Positions 9,475 through 18,646 of a DNA stretch of 64,000 nucleotides are shown piece by piece. The stretch spans positions 248,001 to 312,000 of the forward strand of contig SVNK01000002.1 of NCBI GenBank assembly GCA_015066935.1, given 5' to 3'. This stretch comes from Ruminococcus sp. GTDB taxonomy: Bacteria; Bacillota; Clostridia; Oscillospirales; Ruminococcaceae. Numbering within the stretch: position 1 is the first letter of the stretch; every line of letters begins with the position of its first letter. Both the position numbers and the translations under genes were made by a program. The notes below the pieces were generated by a model. It saw only the letters and a program-made list of their open reading frames with translations, searched no databases and was not told where the DNA came from.

Positions 9475-9966
9475 ATGTTACTTGAACTTCTCAAAAATTT
9501 TTTCTTTTTTGCCCTTCACGTCGATAATAATCCCGTTTTTCCAAAGCCTCTTTCAAAGGCTGAGGAAGAGGAGTGCTTTAAACTAATGGCGCAGAATGAC
9601 AGAAATGCCAAAAATAAGCTTATCGAACATAATCTCAGACTTGTTGCACATATTGTCAAGAAGTACTCTCCTTCCCAGACTGAGCAGGATGAGCTTATTT
9701 CAATCGGTACAATTGGTCTGATAAAAGCTGTTTCTACTTTTGACTATACAAAAGGTGCTAAATTTGCTACCTATGCAAGCAGATGCATTGATAAAGCAAC
9801 ACTATCTTTACGGCTCTCAAAACTTCGCAAGAAGCAACACGAGAGCCTTTTTCTCATGTATGGAAAATTCATCGGAAAATCAATGAAAATTTCTATATTC
9901 TCTATCGTTCCCAGAAAGGTAAAGTTCTGTATGCTCCCCTGTATATCCATTCATTCCGATTTCTGA
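9475..9966 (+). CDS. sigK: RNA polymerase sigma-K, N-terminal half (gene interrupted by skin-like element)
   Basis: ATG at 9475 with GGAGG 6 nt upstream. Residues 1-105 (to 9789) are SigK-like: a hydrophobic N-terminus with FFFFALHV (possible short pro-sequence), FPKPLSKAEEEE, then sigma region 2 with EHNLRLVAHIVKKY, ISIGTIGLIKAV and KFATYASRCI. Homology stops abruptly at CI. About 58 unrelated codons of element DNA follow, ending at TGA 9964-9966. The unrearranged gene therefore encodes a truncated protein lacking regions 3 and 4. The rest is at 18278-18646. Joining at the shared TTG gives CIANEILM, the expected SigK sequence (CIENEILM in B. subtilis), and a 227-aa protein. Confidence 0.92.
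   Translation: MLLELLKNFFFFALHVDNNPVFPKPLSKAEEEECFKLMAQNDRNAKNKLIEHNLRLVAHIVKKYSPSQTEQDELISIGTIGLIKAVSTFDYTKGAKFATYASRCIDKATLSLRLSKLRKKQHESLFLMYGKFIGKSMKISIFSIVPRKVKFCMLPCISIHSDF
9788..9790 (+). other. Left attachment core (TTG) of the sigK element
   Basis: TTG within TGC-ATT-GAT (C-I-D) at the point where SigK homology ends. It is the only short match to the right junction that restores both reading frame and protein homology. For a serine recombinase the crossover dinucleotide would be TT or TG within it. Confidence 0.75.
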
Positions 9967-9977
9967 CCAACCGTCAC

Positions 9978-10424
9978 TTGACAAAGGCTCAGATGTATTT
10001 GTATGAGAATCCAAATCCCGAAAAGCTTACAACTGTATCGGACAAACTGAAATGGTATCGTTATCAGAATGGTTTGTTGCAATCCCAGGTTGCAAAAGCG
10101 ATTGGAGTAAACAGAACGACCTACTCACATTATGAAGAAAATGCTCTTGAATCGTACCCTCTGGACAAGCTTTCAAAAGCTGCTGAGCTGTTCGGAATTG
10201 ATGTGACAGCGTTACTTGATGAATACAACCTGTTTCTCTATCATGGTCAGGGAGCACAAATAAAAAGACTGCGTAAGTCAATGAAGCTCACGCAGTCCAA
10301 GTTTGCAAAATGCCTAAATACTCCCCTCGGTACTCTGAAAAAGTGGGAGCAGAATCGTGTCAGCATTCAGAAAAAGACTTTCAAAAAGCTTTCCGAACTG
10401 TCAATCGCTCCTTTAGACGTCTGA
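9978..10424 (+). CDS. Protein with two XRE-type helix-turn-helix domains
   Basis: Up to 148 aa with two Cro/C1-type HTH motifs: QSQVAKAIGVNRTTYSHYEE (about residues 35-54) and TQSKFAKCLNTPLGTLKKWE (about 104-123). It is probably a DNA-binding regulator of the element. The start is unclear: TTG at 9978 and ATG at 9993 have no strong ribosome site, and the same frame stays open upstream into the left junction without an ATG. The 5' end may therefore have been lost or altered when the element inserted. It is the first gene after the left junction, same strand as sigK. Confidence 0.7.
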   Translation: MTKAQMYLYENPNPEKLTTVSDKLKWYRYQNGLLQSQVAKAIGVNRTTYSHYEENALESYPLDKLSKAAELFGIDVTALLDEYNLFLYHGQGAQIKRLRKSMKLTQSKFAKCLNTPLGTLKKWEQNRVSIQKKTFKKLSELSIAPLDV

Positions 10425-10589
10425 CAAGCGTGTGAAGCGTTTCCGGAGCTTTCGGCGGAACCCTTTGCCCTTGGAAACAGAACGCCTTAATGAACGTCTG
10501 AGAGGTTTATAAAAGGTGAAGGTAAGGAAGGTGTTTTCAGAGCGTACTTTGCATTTCTAAAGATTCAGGTTGTTTATTTGTAGTTCGTG

Positions 10590-11387
10590 TCAGTTCAGAT
10601 ATTCATTCATAATAATGGATGTGGGACGATTGGTGTCTCCCCATGTCTCAATATGTATCTTTCCATTTTCAAGAGTTAATCTTCCTGTTCCTCTGCCGTC
10701 AAGCATATCACAGAATTCGAATTCAGCAGTATTATCAATAAGTTGAGCAGTAATATTTCTTGCAGAAACCGTATCAGAAGCGAGTCCGCTTTCAGCATAC
10801 TGAACAAGTGAAAATGTCAGCGTAGTATCTGTGATTTCCTCTATCGTCAGGACAATTCCACCCATATCCTCATAACCTCCATAGCCTTGAATCTGACTGA
10901 GCGTTTTTCCCTCTGTGATGTAGTCTCCGAGTTGAAATTGATTTACTTGTGGCATGGTTGTTTCAGGTGAAACTGTAGTTGTGATAGTCTCAGTAGTAGT
11001 ATGTGTTTCAGTTGTGCTTGTTGCTTCAATTTGAGTTGTTGAAGCAGTAGTTTTTGTGGTAGAAGTAGTAGTTTCAGCTTGTGCTGTGGTAGTTACTGTA
11101 GTTGAAATTGGTACTGTTGTTGTAGTTGTAATTGTAGTAGCTTCCGTGCTTTCGATTGCAATATCGGAATGATTCTCAGGGATTTCCTTGTTTTCACGCA
11201 TAAGAAAAGAGACAAGTACAATCAGCAAAACAAGCAATAGTCCAATGACCAATAAATACAGCCATTTTCCTGACTTTCTCTCCCCAATGACGGTATTTTC
11301 CTTATCAATTTGACTTTGCATACAGTAGGGACAGAAGCTTGACTGTTCATGAATTTCCTTTCTGCAGTATTGACAGTGCTTCATCAT
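10590..11387 (-). CDS. Zinc-ribbon, single-pass membrane protein with Thr-rich linker
   Basis: 265 aa. The N-terminal zinc ribbon has paired Cys (CQYC and CPYC, residues 5-21), followed by a membrane helix (about 42-64), a Thr/Ser-rich linker of about 80 residues (about 80-155) that probably crosses the wall, and a C-terminal globular domain of about 110 residues of unknown fold. Its start overlaps the kinase stop by 4 bp (ATGA), so the two are co-translated. It may be a membrane sensor or output partner of the kinase; this is inference from context only. Confidence 0.75.
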   Translation of the reverse strand: MMKHCQYCRKEIHEQSSFCPYCMQSQIDKENTVIGERKSGKWLYLLVIGLLLVLLIVLVSFLMRENKEIPENHSDIAIESTEATTITTTTTVPISTTVTTTAQAETTTSTTKTTASTTQIEATSTTETHTTTETITTTVSPETTMPQVNQFQLGDYITEGKTLSQIQGYGGYEDMGGIVLTIEEITDTTLTFSLVQYAESGLASDTVSARNITAQLIDNTAEFEFCDMLDGRGTGRLTLENGKIHIETWGDTNRPTSIIMNEYLN

Positions 11388-12088
11388 TCCAGACTCCTTT
11401 TCAGTTCCTGTACCGTCTGAAAACGCTTGTCAGGAGAAACCTGAATACATTTTTCAATGTCCTTTTGGAGCTTTCCTCGATATAGCTGTACAGAGGGAGT
11501 TTTTCCAGTCAGCATTACATTCATGAGTACGCCTACTGAGAATATATCAGCTCTCATATCCGTTGCAGTTTCATCATACTGTTCGGGAGCAGCATATCCC
11601 GCTGTTCCGAGATATTCCGTATCTCTCGGATAATATGGCTTGTAGATCCTTGCTGAGTCGAAGTCAATCAGCTTGACAGTCTGATTGTTTTCAATCATGA
11701 TATTTTCAGGTTTGATGTCCCTGTGTACGATCCTGTGAGAGTGAAGAATTGATAGTACATCACAAAGCTCAGATACAAGAGCCTTTACAGCGTTTTCCGT
11801 GTAGAGTTCATCCTGTAAAAGCTCAAACAAAGTTACACCGTCAATGTACTCTTCCAGTACCGTTACTTTTCCGTCATGCTCTGTGACCTCTAAAACCTCT
11901 GGAAAGCCTTTATGCCGTATGGTCAGCAATTCACGATACACCTCGGTATTCCCTGTAAAAGTCCGTTTGATAATACGTTTATGAAGCGTTTTGTGTTCCA
12001 GTACCATAATTTCATTTTTATCGGTATTTCTAAGACGTTTTATGAATGTGTACTGTTCATTCAGCACACTTTCAAGCCATGTATGCAA
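11384..12088 (-). CDS. Small eukaryotic-type Ser/Thr protein kinase
   Basis: About 234 aa from a TTG at 12088 (AGGTGAG just upstream); the frame is open further upstream without a good ribosome site. It has the catalytic loop VHRDIKPENIM, a metal-binding DFD (IDFDSAR, in place of DFG), and the activation-segment end GYAAPEQY. The glycine-rich loop is poorly conserved, as in other short bacterial kinases of this kind. There is no PASTA or membrane domain. It is followed by the zinc-ribbon membrane protein (4-bp overlap) and divergent from an HTH gene. Confidence 0.85.
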   Translation of the reverse strand: MHTWLESVLNEQYTFIKRLRNTDKNEIMVLEHKTLHKRIIKRTFTGNTEVYRELLTIRHKGFPEVLEVTEHDGKVTVLEEYIDGVTLFELLQDELYTENAVKALVSELCDVLSILHSHRIVHRDIKPENIMIENNQTVKLIDFDSARIYKPYYPRDTEYLGTAGYAAPEQYDETATDMRADIFSVGVLMNVMLTGKTPSVQLYRGKLQKDIEKCIQVSPDKRFQTVQELKRSLE

Positions 12089-12107
12089 ATAACTCACCTC
12101 ACAGCAC

Positions 12108-12136
12108 TTGTTTTTTCTATTATACCATGTTATAAT
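12108..12136 (+). promoter_or_regulatory. Overlapping divergent promoters with palindromic centre
   Basis: On the plus strand TTGTTT (12108-12113), 17 bp, TATAAT (12131-12136) would serve the HTH gene at 12173. On the minus strand a TATAAT (forward ATTATA at 12119-12124) would serve the kinase. The two -10 hexamers are arms of one inverted repeat, ATTATA-CCATGT-TATAAT (12119-12136), so a single dimeric repressor could block both. Confidence 0.6.
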
Positions 12137-12172
12137 GAAAAAGTAAATCATCATTTTGTACGGAGGCATACT

Positions 12173-12610
12173 ATGAAGCAGAAGGACACGGATAAATTAC
12201 TGGAACTGCTCAGAAAATCGGGAAGCATTGACAGCTACCTCAAAGAAAATGCAGATTTTCTTCTGGATTGTACCTTGAAAGAGTATCTTAATGCACTGAT
12301 TCAGAATAAAAAACTGACCGTTGCACAAATCAGCCGTGACGCTGACCTTTCAGACAGGTATTGCTATCAGTTTTTGTCTCCTTCGAATCCTCGTAATCCG
12401 TCCAGAGAAGTACTGCTCTGTCTTTGTATCGGTATGCATATGAATCTTGATGAAACGCAGACAGCTTTGAAGATCGCTAAGTATGCACCGCTTTACCCTA
12501 AGGATGAAAGAGATAGTATTATTCTGTTCGGCATTGAGAAAAAACAGTCACTTGTGGAAATCAATACGGCTTTGTATGACCATGGATTCAAATGCTTATG
12601 TGAGAAATAG
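12173..12610 (+). CDS. HTH-type protein divergent from the kinase
   Basis: 145 aa from the ATG at 12173, with GGAGG 6 nt upstream. The centre reads LTVAQISRDADLSDRYCYQF, like an XRE helix-turn-helix, followed by PSREVLLCLCIGMHMNLDET and a C-terminal alpha-helical stretch. Similar small HTH proteins commonly sit beside short Ser/Thr kinases in gut Firmicutes (recalled, not checked). It is probably the local regulator, acting on the shared palindromic promoter. It ends at a bidirectional hairpin terminator. Confidence 0.75.
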   Translation: MKQKDTDKLLELLRKSGSIDSYLKENADFLLDCTLKEYLNALIQNKKLTVAQISRDADLSDRYCYQFLSPSNPRNPSREVLLCLCIGMHMNLDETQTALKIAKYAPLYPKDERDSIILFGIEKKQSLVEINTALYDHGFKCLCEK

Positions 12611-12612
12611 GA

Positions 12613-12640
12613 AAAGACGGAGTTTTTACGCTCCGTCTTT
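12613..12640. terminator. Bidirectional terminator
   Basis: Perfect 10-bp stem AAAGACGGAG/CTCCGTCTTT with an 8-nt loop, between convergent genes ending at 12610 (+) and 12645 (-). A T-rich tail follows on the plus strand. Confidence 0.8.
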
Positions 12641-12644
12641 GTCT

Positions 12645-12842
12645 TTAGTTATGTATGCAGGCAGATTGATTCACTCTGTCGCATATCATAGTAATCAGCT
12701 TTTTTGTATCTTCCTCCGAGAGCTGCATTTCCTTGATTCGATTGATAATGGATTGAGCATGAATTTCAGCGATATTCTTGCTTAACGCTTTCTGTGCAGC
12801 TGCGGATTTCGGGTAATGTACAACCACCTGCATGATGACCAC
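12645..12842 (-). CDS. Small protein encoded after the Rep gene
   Basis: About 65 aa from a GTG at 12842, or 62 aa from an ATG at 12833. It begins 15 nt after the rep stop on the same strand. The sequence is mostly helical and charged (AAAQKALSKNIAEIHAQSI, LSEEDTKKLITMICDRV). I do not recognise a family. Its length, helical character and position in a recombinase-bearing element make it one candidate for the recombination directionality factor, or an accessory replication protein; neither has direct evidence. Confidence 0.55.
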   Translation of the reverse strand: MVIMQVVVHYPKSAAAQKALSKNIAEIHAQSIINRIKEMQLSEEDTKKLITMICDRVNQSACIHN

Positions 12843-12857
12843 CAGCTTTCACTTTCA

Positions 12858-13760
12858 TCATATTTTCTTGGGGTTGTACATTATTCTTTTCTTGTTGAAT
12901 TGATATCTTGCAATTCGGTTAACAGTGACATTTTCTTCGGGGTTATCATAGGTCAGGATGATTTCTGTTGCACTTGAATATGTCAGATTCTTTTCATTTA
13001 CGAATTTCAAGGCTTCTTTGTAAGTGGTCTTGAATCTTTTTGGCTGAACAATACCCTTGGAATAACCATAGAATCTTTTATTCGGTGGATAGAAACGTAA
13101 TCTTGCATTTTTGACAATATATTGTCTGTCTGTCACATCTTTTGTATCATCTTCAAATACATCGAGATTTTTGAGTAATGCTGTAAAGTATGCCCCTACA
13201 TTATCACAGCCAAGTGTTGTAGTTTTGCGTACAAATCCATGTCCCCAGAGCGTTTCAAGCTGTTCAAGAGGAATTGAAAGATTACCGTATTTCTTCGATT
13301 TGAGTAATGCGTGAATGTGCCATGAGCCTGTTTGCTGTGGTTCAATAATACGGATAAATTCCAAATCGGGATAATGATAGTGAAGCTTCTCCCAGAAACG
13401 TTTGAAATCCATAGAAGCCTTCTCAAAATCAGTCATTCTCTCCGCATAAGTCAGAGTGATATGACGTTCATTGATTTCACCAGTGAAATTTGTGTTGATA
13501 AGCTGACGGAGCCTTTCAAAGGAGCGATTCATATTACGACTGCGATTTTGTTCCTTGTGCTGATATTCCTTTACCTCTCCGGTTCGGGTATCGTAGTACT
13601 CATTCTGATTGATACGCTTGATATGACGGAGATTGTTGTAGCTTCTATCCATTGCACGAAGCTCTGTTACATTTCCTGATATGCATACATGAGTGATTGC
13701 ATTGTCATCAGGGGTGAAGTTGTTAATTGCCTTTGCTGTTACTTTGAAATTCTTGTTCAT
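12858..13760 (-). CDS. HUH-endonuclease replication initiator (Rep, rolling-circle type)
   Basis: 300 aa, ATG at 13760 with GGAGG upstream. It has motif I HITLTYAER (about residues 100-108), the HUH motif WHIHALL with H148 and H150, and a downstream Tyr in VGAYFTALLKN (about residue 191) fitting the nicking tyrosine. This is the arrangement of rolling-circle Rep proteins of small plasmids and phages (REP_ORF2/G2P-like). HUH proteins nick DNA at an origin and stay bound through the tyrosine. Its presence suggests the excised circle replicates, or once did, or that the element descends from a small mobilisable plasmid. It is followed by a 62-65-aa gene. Confidence 0.8.
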   Translation of the reverse strand: MNKNFKVTAKAINNFTPDDNAITHVCISGNVTELRAMDRSYNNLRHIKRINQNEYYDTRTGEVKEYQHKEQNRSRNMNRSFERLRQLINTNFTGEINERHITLTYAERMTDFEKASMDFKRFWEKLHYHYPDLEFIRIIEPQQTGSWHIHALLKSKKYGNLSIPLEQLETLWGHGFVRKTTTLGCDNVGAYFTALLKNLDVFEDDTKDVTDRQYIVKNARLRFYPPNKRFYGYSKGIVQPKRFKTTYKEALKFVNEKNLTYSSATEIILTYDNPEENVTVNRIARYQFNKKRIMYNPKKI

Positions 13761-13986
13761 AAAGAATTCCTCCTTAATTATTAAATTAACAAGGCTTTAT
13801 CGCTTGTTGAACAAGACTCGTAGTTAGCTATGGCTACAACTCCTCTTTTTTGCAACTTTACAAATTATTCATAATCTCAAAGAAATAAGAAAGTCCCTGA
13901 TATCTCAGAGACTTAATAAATTGATTCTTTTTTTAGCCGATGTTGCGGTAATAATCAAGTTAAAGGGTATAAAATAAAAAACAAAC
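13761..13986. other. Non-coding region upstream of rep with palindromes (candidate operator or origin)
   Basis: No gene. It holds a 13-bp perfect palindrome CTTGTT-G-AACAAG (13803-13815) with an extra AACAAG half-site near 13789, a TAGC/GCTA hairpin (about 13826-13837), and a 10-bp stem with one mismatch and a TATC loop (13891-13914). Such structures fit a Rep autoregulation site or double-strand origin, but no conserved nick sequence is recognised. Confidence 0.4.
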
Positions 13987-14012
13987 AGCACTCCACATTA
14001 AAGTGAAGTGCT
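13987..14012 (-). terminator. Rho-independent terminator of the lipoprotein/zinc-ribbon operon
   Basis: Stem AGCACTCCAC/GTGAAGTGCT (one mismatch). On the minus strand it is followed by GTTTGTTTTTTATTTT. It lies just after the gene ending at 14023. Confidence 0.8.
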
Positions 14013-14022
14013 GAAAGTATTT

Positions 14023-14613
14023 TTATTCGATTTCAATATGGTTTTCTTCTCCCCAACCAAATTTGTCGTTGGTTCGATAGTAGTCTGGAATGTTATTTTT
14101 AGTGAATCTTCCTCCATCAATTTCTCCGTTAAAATCATCTTCTCCATGCCAATGAATATATGTTTGATAATTACCAGAATCTGTATCAAATTTTAGAAGA
14201 AGGAACCACCATGTTTCAAATCCTTGTTTACTTTCGGTTGTTGCAGATACTATATAGTTATAATAGCCGTCTGTATCCAATATCTCAATGTCGTAAACAT
14301 CTTGGTCGTGGGATACTGAGTATTGGTCACGTATGGTTGAAATTGTAAGCGTTTTTACTACATCTTCCTCAGAATCTTCTCCAAATGGAGAAGATGAATC
14401 CCCACTGCCAACCGCACAAGCAATTACAATGATAATAAGCACAGCAAAAACAGCAATTAAGACCATTTTCCCTTTTGTCATCTTTTTTGTTACTACTGTT
14501 GTATTGGGCGTAGTATTACCTTCTTTGGATACTGTTTCCATTACTTTAGTACCGCATTCAGTACAGAACGTAGCACCGTCTTTCATTTCTTTTCCACAAT
14601 TTTTACAAAACAT
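14023..14613 (-). CDS. Zinc-ribbon, single-pass membrane protein (second of the element)
   Basis: 196 aa. The N-terminal zinc ribbon has CKNCG and CTECG (residues 3-20), then a short Thr-rich stretch, a membrane helix (about 48-68), and a C-terminal extracytoplasmic domain of about 120 residues with many acidic and aromatic residues and no recognised fold. It shares the ribbon-helix-domain plan of the protein at 10590-11387 but not its C-terminal sequence. It follows the lipoprotein gene by 15 nt and is probably co-transcribed with it. Confidence 0.75.
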   Translation of the reverse strand: MFCKNCGKEMKDGATFCTECGTKVMETVSKEGNTTPNTTVVTKKMTKGKMVLIAVFAVLIIIVIACAVGSGDSSSPFGEDSEEDVVKTLTISTIRDQYSVSHDQDVYDIEILDTDGYYNYIVSATTESKQGFETWWFLLLKFDTDSGNYQTYIHWHGEDDFNGEIDGGRFTKNNIPDYYRTNDKFGWGEENHIEIE

Positions 14614-14628
14614 AGATATTACTCCAAT

Positions 14629-15864
14629 TTAGTTTATACACCAGATTTTGTATCTTGCCATTGCACTGCTTTCTTTTCCTAGGTCACTAGCGTAAAAAAC
14701 ATCACTGTTTGTTAGATATTCGTAGATAATCCAAGAATTACCAACAACTTCCTCAGCTCTTCGTTCAGTTGAATTACTTGCTGTTGAGTACAAATTGTCT
14801 AAGCGTGTACCTGATTCATCGTAAGTTGCAGAAGGAACCAATGCAGCATCAAAAGCACGAAAATAAGCATAACCATTCTGTCCCCATTGTTTACTTATTG
14901 CAAATGTGTCTACAGCAATTTCAGCATGAGCAATGTAATCTTCCTCATTAACTGCAACTAATATAACGATATATGGGTCATCACCTTTAAAAGTGTTATC
15001 GGAGCCATATTCCATGTAATAAGCTTTATCCATAAACCGCTTATCTTCTTCACCAATTTCCAATTCTATAAAACGTGATTTATCAGGATTAAAATCGTAC
15101 CCTGAATTCTCTTTCAATATTTGAGCATAATCAGCAAAGAACTCATCTATTTTCTTATTATAAAAGACTCTGCCTTGACTATCGGTAATAGAAGCAGAAA
15201 CGGTTGGATTTTCCGAAAAGCTTTCATTCGATTCTTGGTTAGCGTTTGATTCAAGGGTAGTTACATCAATATTCACTCCACCGTCAAATGACGATAACTC
15301 AAGCTTTGCGGAATTATCCATAATACTATCCCATGTATAAAGACTGTAGAATCCTGCACTCTCAACCGAAGAATGTTCACCGTATGTTTCTGCAATCAAA
15401 ACAGACCAATCTTCAAGACTTTTTGTTTTTGTGGTGCTTTGAATATAAGTGTAGCTGATTTGGCTTAATTGATTATCAGAAAATAAGAATGAAACATCCA
15501 ATGTTTCACCGCACAGTTCAACATCCATATACGCAAGATAAGTTTGTGTTACACCTGTGATATCATCTGTATTACTTTCCTCGAAAGAAGAAATATAAGC
15601 ATTCATACTGCTTTTTACAGTTTCAATATCGTCATTCCACTGCACACCCTGCATGATTTCATTGTTTTTCTCAGACATTTGTTCATTAGTCGAAGCTTCT
15701 GTTTCTGCTTCAGTTGTTACAATACTTGTTGTTTCCTCAATCGCTTCCGTACTCGCAGAGGTTGTGCTTTCAACAGTTTCACTCTTACTGTTAGTAGTTT
15801 CATCCTTTCCGCAAGCAGTCAGAAACAAAGAAAGACATAACAGTAGCCCCAGATACTTTTTCAT
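14629..15864 (-). CDS. Lipoprotein of unknown function
   Basis: 411 aa from an ATG at 15864 (GAGGTG 7 nt upstream; the frame extends 5 codons further). Signal peptide with lipobox LTAC, lipidated Cys at residue 18, then a Ser/Thr/Glu-rich linker (about 20-70). A first domain (about 75-190) and a second (about 210-411) have no recognised family. It would be anchored outside the membrane. It is the first gene of a two-gene operon with a zinc-ribbon membrane protein. Confidence 0.75.
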   Translation of the reverse strand: MKKYLGLLLCLSLFLTACGKDETTNSKSETVESTTSASTEAIEETTSIVTTEAETEASTNEQMSEKNNEIMQGVQWNDDIETVKSSMNAYISSFEESNTDDITGVTQTYLAYMDVELCGETLDVSFLFSDNQLSQISYTYIQSTTKTKSLEDWSVLIAETYGEHSSVESAGFYSLYTWDSIMDNSAKLELSSFDGGVNIDVTTLESNANQESNESFSENPTVSASITDSQGRVFYNKKIDEFFADYAQILKENSGYDFNPDKSRFIELEIGEEDKRFMDKAYYMEYGSDNTFKGDDPYIVILVAVNEEDYIAHAEIAVDTFAISKQWGQNGYAYFRAFDAALVPSATYDESGTRLDNLYSTASNSTERRAEEVVGNSWIIYEYLTNSDVFYASDLGKESSAMARYKIWCIN

Positions 15865-15903
15865 AAATTTGCACCTCAATTCAAAGAAGTCGTATTTTGT
15901 CTC

Positions 15904-15932
15904 ATTATACCACTTTTAGTACGGTTTGTCAA
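15904..15932 (-). promoter_or_regulatory. Promoter of the lipoprotein operon
   Basis: On the minus strand TTGACA (15927-15932), a 17-bp spacer, TATAAT (15904-15909): a near-perfect vegetative promoter. Confidence 0.8.
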
Positions 15933-15997
15933 GCGACTTCCGTCTATTAGATACACAAAACTGTCTTAAAGACGAATAATATATTTCATACAGTCCA

Positions 15998-16026
15998 TTA
16001 AATCTATACCAGAAATGCGGTATAAT
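15998..16026 (+). promoter_or_regulatory. Probable promoter of the XRE regulator
   Basis: TATAAT at 16021-16026 with a weak -35 TTAAAT 17 bp upstream. The bases before the -10 (GAAATGCGG) resemble those before the recombinase promoter (GAAATTTGCGG), suggesting a shared control site. Confidence 0.5.
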
Positions 16027-16045
16027 AATACAAAGGAGTGATGTT

Positions 16046-16384
16046 ATGGAACAGGAGCTTGATTATACTGCCATTGGTGACCGAATCCGCAGATACCGTG
16101 AGCTATCCAGAATGACGCAGGAACAGCTCAGCGAGCTTTGCTCACTATCCACAGGATATATCGGGCATCTGGAGCGAGGAACACGTTCACCGTCTCTGGA
16201 AACGCTTGCAAAAATCTCTCAGATTCTCCGAGTAAGTTTGGACGACTTGGTATTCGGAGAAGCCGAAATCAGCAACAACATGATCAAAATTCTTGCACTC
16301 ACCTTAGAGGAGAAAGATCCTGAAAAAGTGAAGGTGTTTCTCAAAACAGTCTGTGCCCTCGCTGATAAAATTGATGAATTTTAA
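16046..16384 (+). CDS. XRE-family transcriptional regulator
   Basis: 112 aa, ATG at 16046 after AAAGGAG. A single Cro/C1 HTH fills the N-terminal half (IGDRIRRYRELSRMTQEQLSEL, then STGYIGHLERGTRSPSLETL), followed by a helical C-terminal tail. It lies directly upstream of the recombinase on the same strand, separated by a terminator. By analogy with SknR of B. subtilis skin it may be the immunity-type repressor of the element; this is inference from position. Confidence 0.85.
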   Translation: MEQELDYTAIGDRIRRYRELSRMTQEQLSELCSLSTGYIGHLERGTRSPSLETLAKISQILRVSLDDLVFGEAEISNNMIKILALTLEEKDPEKVKVFLKTVCALADKIDEF

Positions 16385-16392
16385 CTAACACA

Positions 16393-16435
16393 AATGCCCT
16401 ATGATGATTATAACACATCAGAGGGCATTCTTTTT
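16393..16435 (+). terminator. Terminator after the XRE regulator
   Basis: Stem AATGCCCT/AGGGCATT with an inner TGATG/CATCA pairing, followed by TTCTTTTT. It separates the regulator from the recombinase, so the recombinase relies mainly on its own promoter. Confidence 0.75.
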
Positions 16436-16486
16436 GCAGCAGTTTGCTTCAATTTCAAAGTTTTTTCTCAATTTCAAAAATAACTT

Positions 16487-16515
16487 TTGCTTTTTTACGA
16501 AATTTGCGGTATAAT
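16487..16515 (+). promoter_or_regulatory. Sigma-A-type promoter of the recombinase
   Basis: TTGCTT (16487-16492), 17 bp, TATAAT (16510-16515). No sigma-E-like ATATT/CATACA pair is seen upstream of the recombinase, unlike B. subtilis spoIVCA. A direct repeat TCAATTTCAAA (16449-16459 and 16468-16478, 19-bp period) lies just upstream and could be an operator. Confidence 0.6.
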
Positions 16516-16578
16516 GGTCTTAGGGACAAAAGCCGTAATGTGATAAAACCAAATCAACATATACAAAGGAGCGTTCTT

Positions 16579-18327
16579 ATGGAAGATTTGAGAAAAGTAG
16601 CGATTTATTCGAGAAAGTCCAAGTTTACCGGCAAAGGTGAGAGCATCGGAAATCAGATTGAAATGTGCAGGCAGAGTATTTACAATACTTTTGATAACAT
16701 TTCCGATGATGACATACTGATTTTTGAGGACGAGGGATTCTCAGGTGGTAATACCAATCGTCCTCAGTTCCAGAAAATGTTAAAGCTTTGCCGTGAAAAA
16801 CAAATCAAGTGTATTGTCTGCTATCGCTTAGACCGTATCAGCAGAAATGTCGGAGATTACTCGAATCTGATTAACGAGTTGAATAAGCTTGATGTTTCCT
16901 TTATATCCGTAACTGAGAAATTTGATACTACAACACACATGGGCAGAGCGATGATGTATATTGCGTCTGTGTTTGCTCAGCTTGAACGTGAAACTATGGC
17001 AGAGCGTATCCGTGATAATATGATAGAACTTGCAAAGGACGGAAGATGGCTCGGAGGAAACCCTCCTACAGGATATAAAAGTGTTGAAACAATAGGCAGT
17101 ATTACCATTGACGGAAGAAAGAGAAAAGCTCGAAAGCTTGAAATCGTTCCCGACGAAGCAGAGATTGTAAAGCTTGTTTTCTCAAAATTCCTTGAATATC
17201 GTTCTTTGACTAAAACGGAGACTTATCTGATTCAGAATGATTATATCACCAAAACAGGAAAAACCTTCTCACGATTTGCTATTAAAGCAATTCTTATGAA
17301 TCCAGTTTACTTAATTGCGGATGAAATGGCATGGAATTATTTTGAACTCAAAGAGGTTGATATATTTGCTGAGAAGAGCAATTTTAACGGAACGCATGGT
17401 ATTATGGCGTACAACAAAACAAGTCAGCAGGTAGGACATTCCAATGAGATCCGTGATATGAAAGAGTGGATTATTGCAGTCGGCAGACATAAAGGTCTTG
17501 TCAGTGGTGAAGATTGGGTACAGGTACAGAAGCTTTTGGAGCAGAACAAATCGAAAGCTTATCGTAAGCCGAGAAGCAATGTTGCTTTAATCTCCGGATT
17601 ACTCTATTGCGGAGACTGCGGAAGCTTTATGCGTCCGAAGCTTTCACAGAGAGTCAATAAAGACGGCGAATTGATTTATGATTACCTTTGTGAGTTGAAA
17701 GAAAAGAGCAAGAAACAGAAATGCGATATAAAACGTGCTAACGGCAATGAGCTTGATAAACTTGTTTGCATGGAAATTCAGAAGCTTACATCCGATAAAT
17801 CAGAGTTTATGAAGTCTCTTAAAAAAGAGCAGAAACAACTGAATATCAATGATTCTTCTTATCAGGACACATTAAAAAATCTTAGAAAGAGCAAATCCGA
17901 TACAGAATCAAAAATCAAGAATCTATTGCAGACTCTGGCTAAGACAGAGGGAACTTCTGCTCAGGACTACATTCTGAATGAAATCAATGAGCTTGACAGG
18001 AAAATCAAAGCTTTGGAAACTCAGATTCAGGAACATGAGGATTTAGCAAATGCAGGTAATATGTCCGATACCGAATTCGTTAATCTCGCAGATATGCTTT
18101 GTTCCTTTGCGGATTCTTTTGAGACTATGCCGATAGAACAGAAACGTCTTGCACTTAGAGCTTTTATAAAGAAAATCATCTGGGACGGCGACAAAGTACA
18201 CATTTATTTCTTTGGAAGTGAAGAAGATGAAATAGACCTTTCAAATGACGAGAATTTAGAGCCGCAGCGAGAGGGTTGCAAACGAAATCCTTATGAATTT
18301 TCGTGCAGCAAAAAAATCAGCCGGTGA
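16579..18327 (+). CDS. Large serine recombinase of the sigK element (SpoIVCA-like)
   Basis: 582 aa from the ATG at 16579 with AAAGGAG 8 nt upstream. The resolvase domain is N-terminal, with nucleophile Ser14 in AIYSRKS and the YRLDRISRN segment. A recombinase domain follows (RWLGGNPPTGY onward), then a zinc ribbon with CGDC near residue 345 and two later Cys, then a coiled coil (about 420-500). It should excise the element to restore sigK. The last 16 codons lie beyond the right crossover point and are read from sigK DNA in another frame. In the excised circle the frame would instead read GGT-TGA-TAA, ending the protein at 566 aa. Excision probably also needs a directionality factor. Confidence 0.9.
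   Translation: MEDLRKVAIYSRKSKFTGKGESIGNQIEMCRQSIYNTFDNISDDDILIFEDEGFSGGNTNRPQFQKMLKLCREKQIKCIVCYRLDRISRNVGDYSNLINELNKLDVSFISVTEKFDTTTHMGRAMMYIASVFAQLERETMAERIRDNMIELAKDGRWLGGNPPTGYKSVETIGSITIDGRKRKARKLEIVPDEAEIVKLVFSKFLEYRSLTKTETYLIQNDYITKTGKTFSRFAIKAILMNPVYLIADEMAWNYFELKEVDIFAEKSNFNGTHGIMAYNKTSQQVGHSNEIRDMKEWIIAVGRHKGLVSGEDWVQVQKLLEQNKSKAYRKPRSNVALISGLLYCGDCGSFMRPKLSQRVNKDGELIYDYLCELKEKSKKQKCDIKRANGNELDKLVCMEIQKLTSDKSEFMKSLKKEQKQLNINDSSYQDTLKNLRKSKSDTESKIKNLLQTLAKTEGTSAQDYILNEINELDRKIKALETQIQEHEDLANAGNMSDTEFVNLADMLCSFADSFETMPIEQKRLALRAFIKKIIWDGDKVHIYFFGSEEDEIDLSNDENLEPQREGCKRNPYEFSCSKKISR
18276..18278 (+). other. Right attachment core (TTG) of the sigK element
   Basis: TTG within GTT-GCA-AAC just before NEILM of sigK. 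Replacing upstream DNA with the left half up to TTG gives TGC-ATT-GCA-AAC (C-I-A-N). It lies inside the 3' end of the recombinase gene. Confidence 0.75.
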
Positions 18328-18646
18328 TGTGTATATTGATGAACCAGTCGAAACTGACAAGGATGGAAATACACTATCACTGATGGATTTGATTTCCGAT
18401 GGTGCAGATATTCATGAGCAGGTCGATATTCTCATACGTTCAAAGCAGCTTTATAAATTTCTGAAGATTTGTCTTGATCCGAGAGAACTTGAAATTATTG
18501 TTTATAGGTATGGTCTTTATGGAATGAATCCGCATACTCAGAATGAAACTGCCCAAAGACTCGGTATATCACGTTCCTATATTTCACGAATAGAAAAAAG
18601 AGCAATCGAAAAACTCAGAAAAATGTATGATACAACACCGTATTAA
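18278..18646 (+). CDS. sigK: RNA polymerase sigma-K, C-terminal half (interrupted gene)
   Basis: From the right crossover the frame reads ANEILMNFRAAKK, then DEPVETDKDGN, then a C-terminal region 4 HTH (NETAQRLGISRSYISRIEKR), ending at 18646. It supplies regions 3 and 4 of SigK, as spoIIIC does in B. subtilis. An ATG exists at 18293 but has no ribosome site, so this half is probably expressed only after excision. Sigma-K directs late mother-cell genes for coat and spore release. The junction lies at the end of region 2, essentially where skin inserts in B. subtilis. Confidence 0.92.
   Translation, partial: ANEILMNFRAAKKSAGDVYIDEPVETDKDGNTLSLMDLISDGADIHEQVDILIRSKQLYKFLKICLDPRELEIIVYRYGLYGMNPHTQNETAQRLGISRSYISRIEKRAIEKLRKMYDTTPY

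Follow-up and report, generated by a model that had tools for sequence, protein, structure and literature searches.

The sigK gene of a gut Ruminococcus (genome G000; 2.1 Mb, 98.7% complete) is divided by an element of 8,488 bp that carries a large serine recombinase (LSR) at its end; the stretch of DNA in which it lies, referred to here as the window, comprises 64,000 nucleotides (contig SVNK01000002.1, positions 248,001 to 312,000), and coordinates are those of the window unless a locus is named. The best explanation, to which we give a probability of roughly 85%, is a skin-type, non-prophage integrative element whose excision in the mother cell would restore sigK; we infer the excision, its timing and the role of a small element-encoded protein from sequence. 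In growing cells and in the forespore, the element would stay integrated and sigK off. The change would come in the mother cell: there sigma-E and SpoIIID would induce the small protein, a directionality factor that would make the LSR excise rather than integrate, and crossover at an AA dinucleotide would then join the halves into a gene for a 227-aa SigK and release an 8.5-kb circle. The element would not be lost in this way, because the mother cell dies while the spore keeps an integrated copy, and the element family is also horizontally mobile.

The split sigK gene and its junctions

The N-terminal half of SigK (9475-9789) and the C-terminal half (18278-18646) align with complementary segments of the SigK model TIGR02846 (profile positions 6-109 for the first, 111-226 for the second), and joining them in silico gives a protein of 227 aa. 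The initial annotation of this DNA had described a sigK split by an 8.5-kb skin-type element with an LSR at the right junction; the split and the size are borne out, and the LSR (16579-18327) overlaps the junction, its last 14 codons falling within sigK sequence. A second intact sigK, named there beforehand as refuting, was searched for in the 98.7%-complete genome with each SigK half as query and was not found; the further matches are best named SigE (over the cut-off), SigG and SigF (both under the curated cut-offs), apart from one frame of SigA length that lay outside the model scan. The sporulation regulators sigE, sigF, sigG, spoIIID (E 9e-30, under the curated cut-off) and spo0A are all present. 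The designation skin-type thus draws on position, recombinase, symmetry of the attachment (att) sites, relatives and sporulation regulators, with excision as its predicted part.

Among 80 relatives, 38 same-genus genomes have a match to the N-half at E 1e-35 or better that is uncut by a contig end; in 34 of them it belongs to a single open frame of 226 codons or more, and in the other 4 sigK is split. Three of the split genomes carry the closest LSRs, 72% (G030), 64% (G014) and 59% (G034) identical to that of the window, while in G022 (66% complete) sigK is split at the same site with a helix-turn-helix (HTH) domain (39% identical) behind the junction and neither LSR nor C-half is found on its 7-kb contig. 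Since the same junction and a related LSR recur in independent assemblies, the split is not an effect of chance or assembly. The elements of G014 and G034 (5.5 kb) share with the window the left HTH, a replication initiator (Rep), the small protein, a zinc-ribbon protein, an XRE regulator and the LSR. As side observations, the split sigK of G022 corresponds to locus L066 from 1483 on the reverse strand, the LSR end being missing from the assembly, and an apparent rearrangement in G030, with the halves on two contigs, is explained by a 100-N scaffold gap beside the LSR.

The crossover is most likely the AA dinucleotide at 9793-9794 and 18281-18282. It is common to 31 of 31 junction pairs, and joining at AA gives C(I/V)(E/D)NE(I/L)LM in all 31 joined loci (CIDNEILM, or RCI-D-NEILM, in the window); since many relatives share a run longer than AA, the exact dinucleotide would be the most probable choice within that run. 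The initial annotation had placed the crossover a few bases away, at a shared TTG, and had proposed that the intact sigK of relatives be read for CIxNEILM. That comparison gives Glu (23/26) or Asp (3/26) at the junction residue of the 26 intact same-genus genes extracted, which fits AA in every case, and never the Ala of CIANEILM that a TTG join would yield; moreover, the TTG is not shared in the sister species G014 (ATAG at attL, TTGC at attR), and it is rejected. The attP site of the circle is near-palindromic with AA at its centre: its 24-nt arms are identical at 18 of 24 positions in the window and at 15.1 on average (range 11-19) across 30 elements, against a shuffled mean of 6.2, so that the junctions carry inverted-repeat half-sites. 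Just inside attL, a terminator-like hairpin (GGCTCTC...GAGAGCC followed by a T-run; 9811-9855, by eye) overlaps the attP arm.

A recombinase clade found beside sigK

An LSR matching that of the window at E 1e-90 or better occurs in 8 of 125 genomes of the genus and adjoins sigK in six of the eight (not in G011 or G110). A search of named genomes with two short patterns gave 411 LSR relatives, of which the best 80 were retained; 77 of these adjoin a sigK fragment, 74 with the C-half directly downstream and 3 with the N-half in opposite orientation; two of the other three lie on contigs that end 6 bp past the LSR, and the last, L146, does not fit. By comparison, 17 more distant LSR loci taken as a control, with 1.5 kb on each side, have a sigK fragment in one case (L043/G079) and none in 16. 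A sigK fragment stands beside the LSR in 3 of the best 80 viral contigs. In a class-wide sample, the LSR is present at E 1e-130 or better in 43 of 391 genomes, and the 30 loci inspected have a sigK fragment within about 1.5 kb in 24 cases, a weak one in 1 and none in 5. Among the hosts of the best 80 named loci are Ruminococcus, Massilioclostridium, Merdimmobilis, Lacrimispora, Sporomusa, Holdemania, Tyzzerella and Catenibacillus. On these counts, the element of the window is a member of an LSR clade dedicated to sigK. No prior description of such a clade was found in the open-licence PMC literature, and the word sigK is absent from the main text, in the part available, of the LSR survey PMC10083194.

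In L125, L127 and L140, an LSR of the clade lies in opposite orientation beside the sigK 5' part, as described for Bacillus subtilis. L325 and L328 are sigK insertions of 2.7-2.9 kb in which the LSR lies on the opposite strand, accompanied by an open frame of about 200 aa. The R. albus 7 plasmid pRUMAL01 (420 kb) carries an LSR of the clade (L235, 9001-10716) with an AGAGCC half-site-like sequence after it and no sigK match in the 19.6 kb covered. Elements of Lacrimispora-type hosts carry a NiFe hydrogenase (large and small subunits, maturation protease) and alpha-galactosidase-like cargo (L089, 4774-9721); Pfam was run on L089 only, and the families also occur in L090, L093, L099, L103 and L108 and partly in L114, L117 and L118.

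Mini-skins, as they are termed here, are sigK insertions of about 1.65 kb (1,637-1,651 bp between the halves) in four genomes of one genus and contain only an open reading frame (ORF) of 68-70 aa and an LSR of about 450 aa; another genus has one of 2.1 kb. The profile of the small protein also recognises their small ORFs (95.3%, E 2e-8). Five of six genomes of the mini-skin genus have the LSR, and sigK was examined in four of these five. In the three pairs computed, LSRs are 65-83% identical and sigK 90-95%, which fits vertical descent. ACATAAT and CATATA boxes are seen by eye at the left ends, where the GGACA box described below is absent.

Mobility shows when LSRs are compared with the sigK sequence beside them. 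Of 49 LSR pairs with an identity of 90% or more, 39 have neighbouring sigK C-halves that share less than 70%, whereas in 8 the C-halves are as similar as the LSRs or more so; the LSRs of Holdemania and Tyzzerella are 98% identical beside C-halves 44% identical, and elements therefore move between families. On the sigK tree, split genes are dispersed among intact ones. Both sigK halves show few nonsynonymous changes: the C-halves of the window and G030 differ with proportions of 0.79 at synonymous sites (pS) and 0.11 at nonsynonymous sites (pN), and those of L090 and L108, both split, with pS 0.45 and pN 0.01.

The small protein and the reading frame across attP

The complete elements (n = 30, 2.65-11.5 kb) are the 31 joined loci minus L146, whose LSR frame does not fit. 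Besides the LSR, which defines the set, one gene family occurs in all 30, encoding the small protein of 51-122 aa, which has a single match in the genome of the window. Its profile finds 709 proteins; among the 120 listed, none has a Pfam domain and all are named 'hypothetical'. Pfam gives one stray match (E 0.007) on 23 members, PHROGs no match for the protein of the window, and the fold is predicted as a helical hairpin (mean predicted local distance difference test score, pLDDT, of 86). A match to the solved structure 9hnh_A (E 4.5e-5 over 27 residues, no stretch passing alone) was given no weight.

Upstream of the small gene, a sigma-E-like -35/-10 pair scoring at least 12/15, against what we take to be the sigma-E consensus, is present in 13 of the 30 elements; the corresponding rates are 2.4% in 209 control ORFs and 3.2% in shuffled sequence. 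The motif AT(A/G)NNG(G/T)ACA N8-11 (C/A)ATA precedes the small gene in 27 of 30, the window included; it precedes none of 258 other ORFs, occurs in none of 6000 shuffles and is found 30 times in 444,640 bp on both strands. Its G(G/T)ACA resembles the SpoIIID box. The small protein (12645-12833) is thus likely to be the mother-cell excision, or directionality, factor.

A second feature is an open frame that spans attP. When the elements are closed into circles in silico, the LSR frame reads on into the HTH ORF of the left end, over 93-234 codons, in all 16 that bear this HTH family (162-234 codons in 13; L129, L143 and L145, in which the HTH is broken, break at 93-99), whereas in the 14 elements without it the frame runs on for at most 65 codons. 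The distances from a conserved LSR codon to the crossover, and from there to a conserved HTH codon, add up to whole codons in all 13 measurable rows (of 17), and in G014 and L070 shifts of +1 and -1, one at each element end, cancel only in the circle. When integrated, the frame in the window, L067 and L071 has a stop codon at the junction or one codon ahead of it, and no start occurs before codons 61, 48 and 43, respectively (in the window, ATG, GTG and TTG are all absent before codon 61). Even so, this start-less stretch is conserved as protein, its changes being biased to third positions (997, 780 and 1353 differences at the first, second and third codon position, summed over every pair among 11).

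As attP lies inside this frame, excision would reassemble sigK and, in the same event, an LSR-HTH fusion. It is an even bet that the family works as a reciprocal switch with attP inside the integrase gene, a single recombination settling the state of two genes: sigK broken and the LSR ending shortly past the junction (582 aa in the window) when integrated, sigK whole and an LSR-HTH fusion (777 aa in the window) when excised. The fusion could keep the mother cell from leaving the excised state, or it could be the form competent to integrate in a new host, and the elements, from 1.65-kb mini-skins to 11.5-kb carriers, would form one sigK-dedicated mobile family of gut spore-formers. For the frame taken by itself, a competing account, to which we would give a little under even odds, is that the HTH is translated alone in the integrated state, from a start borrowed from sigK or a non-standard one, and that the shared frame is due to coincidence or ancestry. 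A start codon does lie inside sigK just before the junction in G034, L070, L072, L110 and L115, and TTG lies 2 and 8 codons past it in G014 and L075, respectively; the HTH is broken in the three elements named above and decayed in L144. The codons at the junction show little or no third-position bias (372, 309 and 341 differences by codon position in the last 12 LSR codons; 500, 533 and 633 in the first 20 past the junction). No fused LSR-HTH protein was found among 611 database candidates, which counts against a switch and leaves the fusion a prediction. Against translation of the HTH alone stand the stops and distant starts of the window, L067 and L071, a frame open in 16 of 16 elements and the cancelling shifts of G014 and L070. 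Stretches like the left-end HTH also lie directly downstream of distant phage-type LSRs in the viral contigs L179 and L218.

Alternatives, gene content and known systems

Several observations weigh against mother-cell excision of a skin-type element. The promoter of the window is weak, scoring 11/15 where the best of 200 bp of shuffled sequence averages 10.8, and its small gene could also be read together with rep. The same 30 related sequences served both to define the motif and to count it; in 74 other loci, which include close relatives of those 30, the small gene is in view in 26 and preceded by the strict motif in 10 of these, and L111-L113 are without it. No excision product was seen: besides the lack of a fused LSR-HTH protein among the 611 candidates, a pattern search of viral contigs found no attP circle, its attP-pattern loci (3 and 60) including none with small-protein, HTH or sigK matches (L250 has a 32% LSR). 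Tree tests are mixed: grouping the window and G030 with L067 and L071 is rejected on sigK data (p 0.012), whereas a Ruminococcus clade is not rejected on LSR data (p 0.35), so that recent transfer of the window's own copy is unproven. An in-frame ATG lies within the C-half itself (18293, 117 codons), and divergence may partly predate insertion, so that the selection data do not prove function through excision.

One alternative is that the element is an ordinary mobile one that uses sigK as an attachment site and excises on signals of its own (stress, transfer), sigK restoration being incidental. Such an element would account for the horizontal spread seen in 39 of 49 near-identical LSR pairs, for Rep and the phage-type regulators and for the weak promoter of the window; it is nonetheless improbable, given the sigma-E/SpoIIID-like motif before the universal small gene in 27 of 30 elements, the few nonsynonymous changes in both sigK halves and the retention of only the small gene and LSR in mini-skins. 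It is very improbable that the insertion is dead and its host lineage has ceased to complete sporulation. That reading would suit the dispersal of split genes on the sigK tree and the usual description of cellulolytic Ruminococcus as non-sporing, but the LSR, the two sigK halves, the arms of the att sites and the small gene are all intact, the sporulation regulators are present and the halves show few nonsynonymous changes.

The gene content (Table 1) agrees with the preferred reading of a non-prophage integrative element. Capsid, tail and terminase genes were not found when 10 element proteins were compared with PHROGs, and the element does not class as a prophage; the PHROG matches are Rep, regulators, kinase, integrase, unknowns or nothing. 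A rolling-circle Rep together with an integrase makes it an integrative plasmid-like element by gene content. The initial annotation, in which phage-like genes were absent, is right for structural genes but overlooks Rep (PF23343, PHROG 3419) and the phage-type regulators. In the LSR, the motif YSRKSK, the Ser of which we take to be the catalytic residue, is invariant in 4 of 4 aligned sequences. The cargo kinase also matches PD-T4-6 defence kinases (2.9e-37), which may reflect the kinase fold alone.

Table 1. Features of the sigK element and its flanks in the window
Feature	Position	Strand	Basis and remarks
sigK 5' part, through Asp106 and AA overlap	9475..9794	+	SigK model positions 6-109; in frame with 18283
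attL	9770..9819	+	Probable crossover AA 9793-9794; left attP arm GCAACACTATCTTTACGGCTCT; 31 junctions compared
Tandem-HTH domain	9795..10424	+	HTH_3; 209-codon open frame from crossover, in frame with LSR across attP
Thr-rich, membrane-like cargo protein, Cys motif at N terminus	10590..11387	-	By eye; no family over cut-off
Serine/threonine protein kinase, cargo	11384..12169	-	PF00069 4.5e-36
145-aa protein, cargo	12173..12610	+	No family found
Small protein, candidate recombination directionality factor	12645..12833	-	62 aa from ATG, 65 aa from GTG 12842
Sigma-E-like promoter and SpoIIID-like box	12857..12886	-	-35 GAATAAT, GTACAAC, weak -10 AATATGAT; overlaps rep end
Rolling-circle replication initiator Rep, ORF2/G2P type	12858..13760	-	PF23343 9e-14; PHROG 3419 8.6e-22
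Zinc-ribbon membrane-like protein, cargo	14023..14613	-	PF13240
Lipoprotein-like protein, cargo	14629..15864	-	Description by eye; no Pfam family
XRE-type regulator upstream of LSR	16046..16384	+	HTH_3 4e-16
Large serine recombinase, 582 aa	16579..18327	+	PF00239, PF07508, PF13408 (Resolvase, Recombinase, Zn-ribbon)
attR	18258..18307	+	Probable crossover AA 18281-18282; right attP arm AGAGCCGCAGCGAGAGGGTTGC
sigK 3' part	18283..18646	+	SigK model positions 111-226; few nonsynonymous changes

Comparison with known systems draws on the available parts of the papers cited. The B. subtilis skin (SpoIVCA, Skr) is likewise a sigK insertion with an LSR, a small directionality factor (here a candidate) and inverted-repeat att sites. 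Its reported recombination site AATGA (PMC10745906) also occurs within GAAAATGAAAT, the junction of most relatives, the window having AACGA; this is a likeness in letters. In contrast, that skin is 48 kb long and phage-like, with an LSR that adjoins the 5' part and points in the opposite direction (PMC10745906), and Skr is a 64-aa protein whose gene overlaps the start of the LSR gene (PMC6957869); the element of the window is 8.5 kb long, with the LSR beside the 3' part and in the same direction as sigK. The Clostridioides difficile skinCd (CD1231, CD1234) has an LSR and a 72-aa directionality factor, CD1234, under sigma-E and SpoIIID, the logic proposed here, and CD1234 is described as having no significant database similarity (PMC5025042); skinCd differs in being prophage-like, 14.6 kb long and at a position in sigK other than that of B. 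subtilis (PMC10745906). Non-phage elements of sporulation genes that are excised in sporulation include gin (in gerE of B. cereus ATCC10987) and a 22-kb sigK island of B. cereus biovar anthracis, whose cargo differs (three recombinases in gin, restriction-modification in the island); an LSR-HTH frame is not mentioned in the available text of PMC5595907 and PMC10745906. SP-beta (SprA/SprB) also rebuilds a split gene by an LSR and a sporulation-controlled small factor; unlike the present element, it is a whole phage in another gene, spsM (PMC6957869).

The initial annotation held the element to be new in a cellulosomal Ruminococcus. The host fits, with 55 dockerin matches in its genome, and no paper that links Ruminococcus to a 'skin element' and sporulation, or Lachnospiraceae to an interrupted sigK and sporulation, was found in the open-licence PMC literature; the element itself belongs to a large family and is not unique. 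Skin has been termed an exception in clostridia (PMC5025042, in the part available). As related elements sit at the same spot of sigK in many distant spore-formers, repair of a sporulation gene by excision looks commoner and more mobile than described, and sigK-splitting elements appear as a recurrent, mobile, non-phage class in gut Clostridia. The evidence also points to a candidate family of directionality factors that has no Pfam or PHROG entry, and the clade supplies LSRs whose natural target is a conserved protein-coding sequence. Sporulation predictors that require an intact sigK may misjudge genomes in which it is split. The mini-skins, with two genes in 1.65 kb, offer minimal models, and whether skins are kept as timers or as parasites becomes testable by comparing mobile with apparently vertically kept versions.

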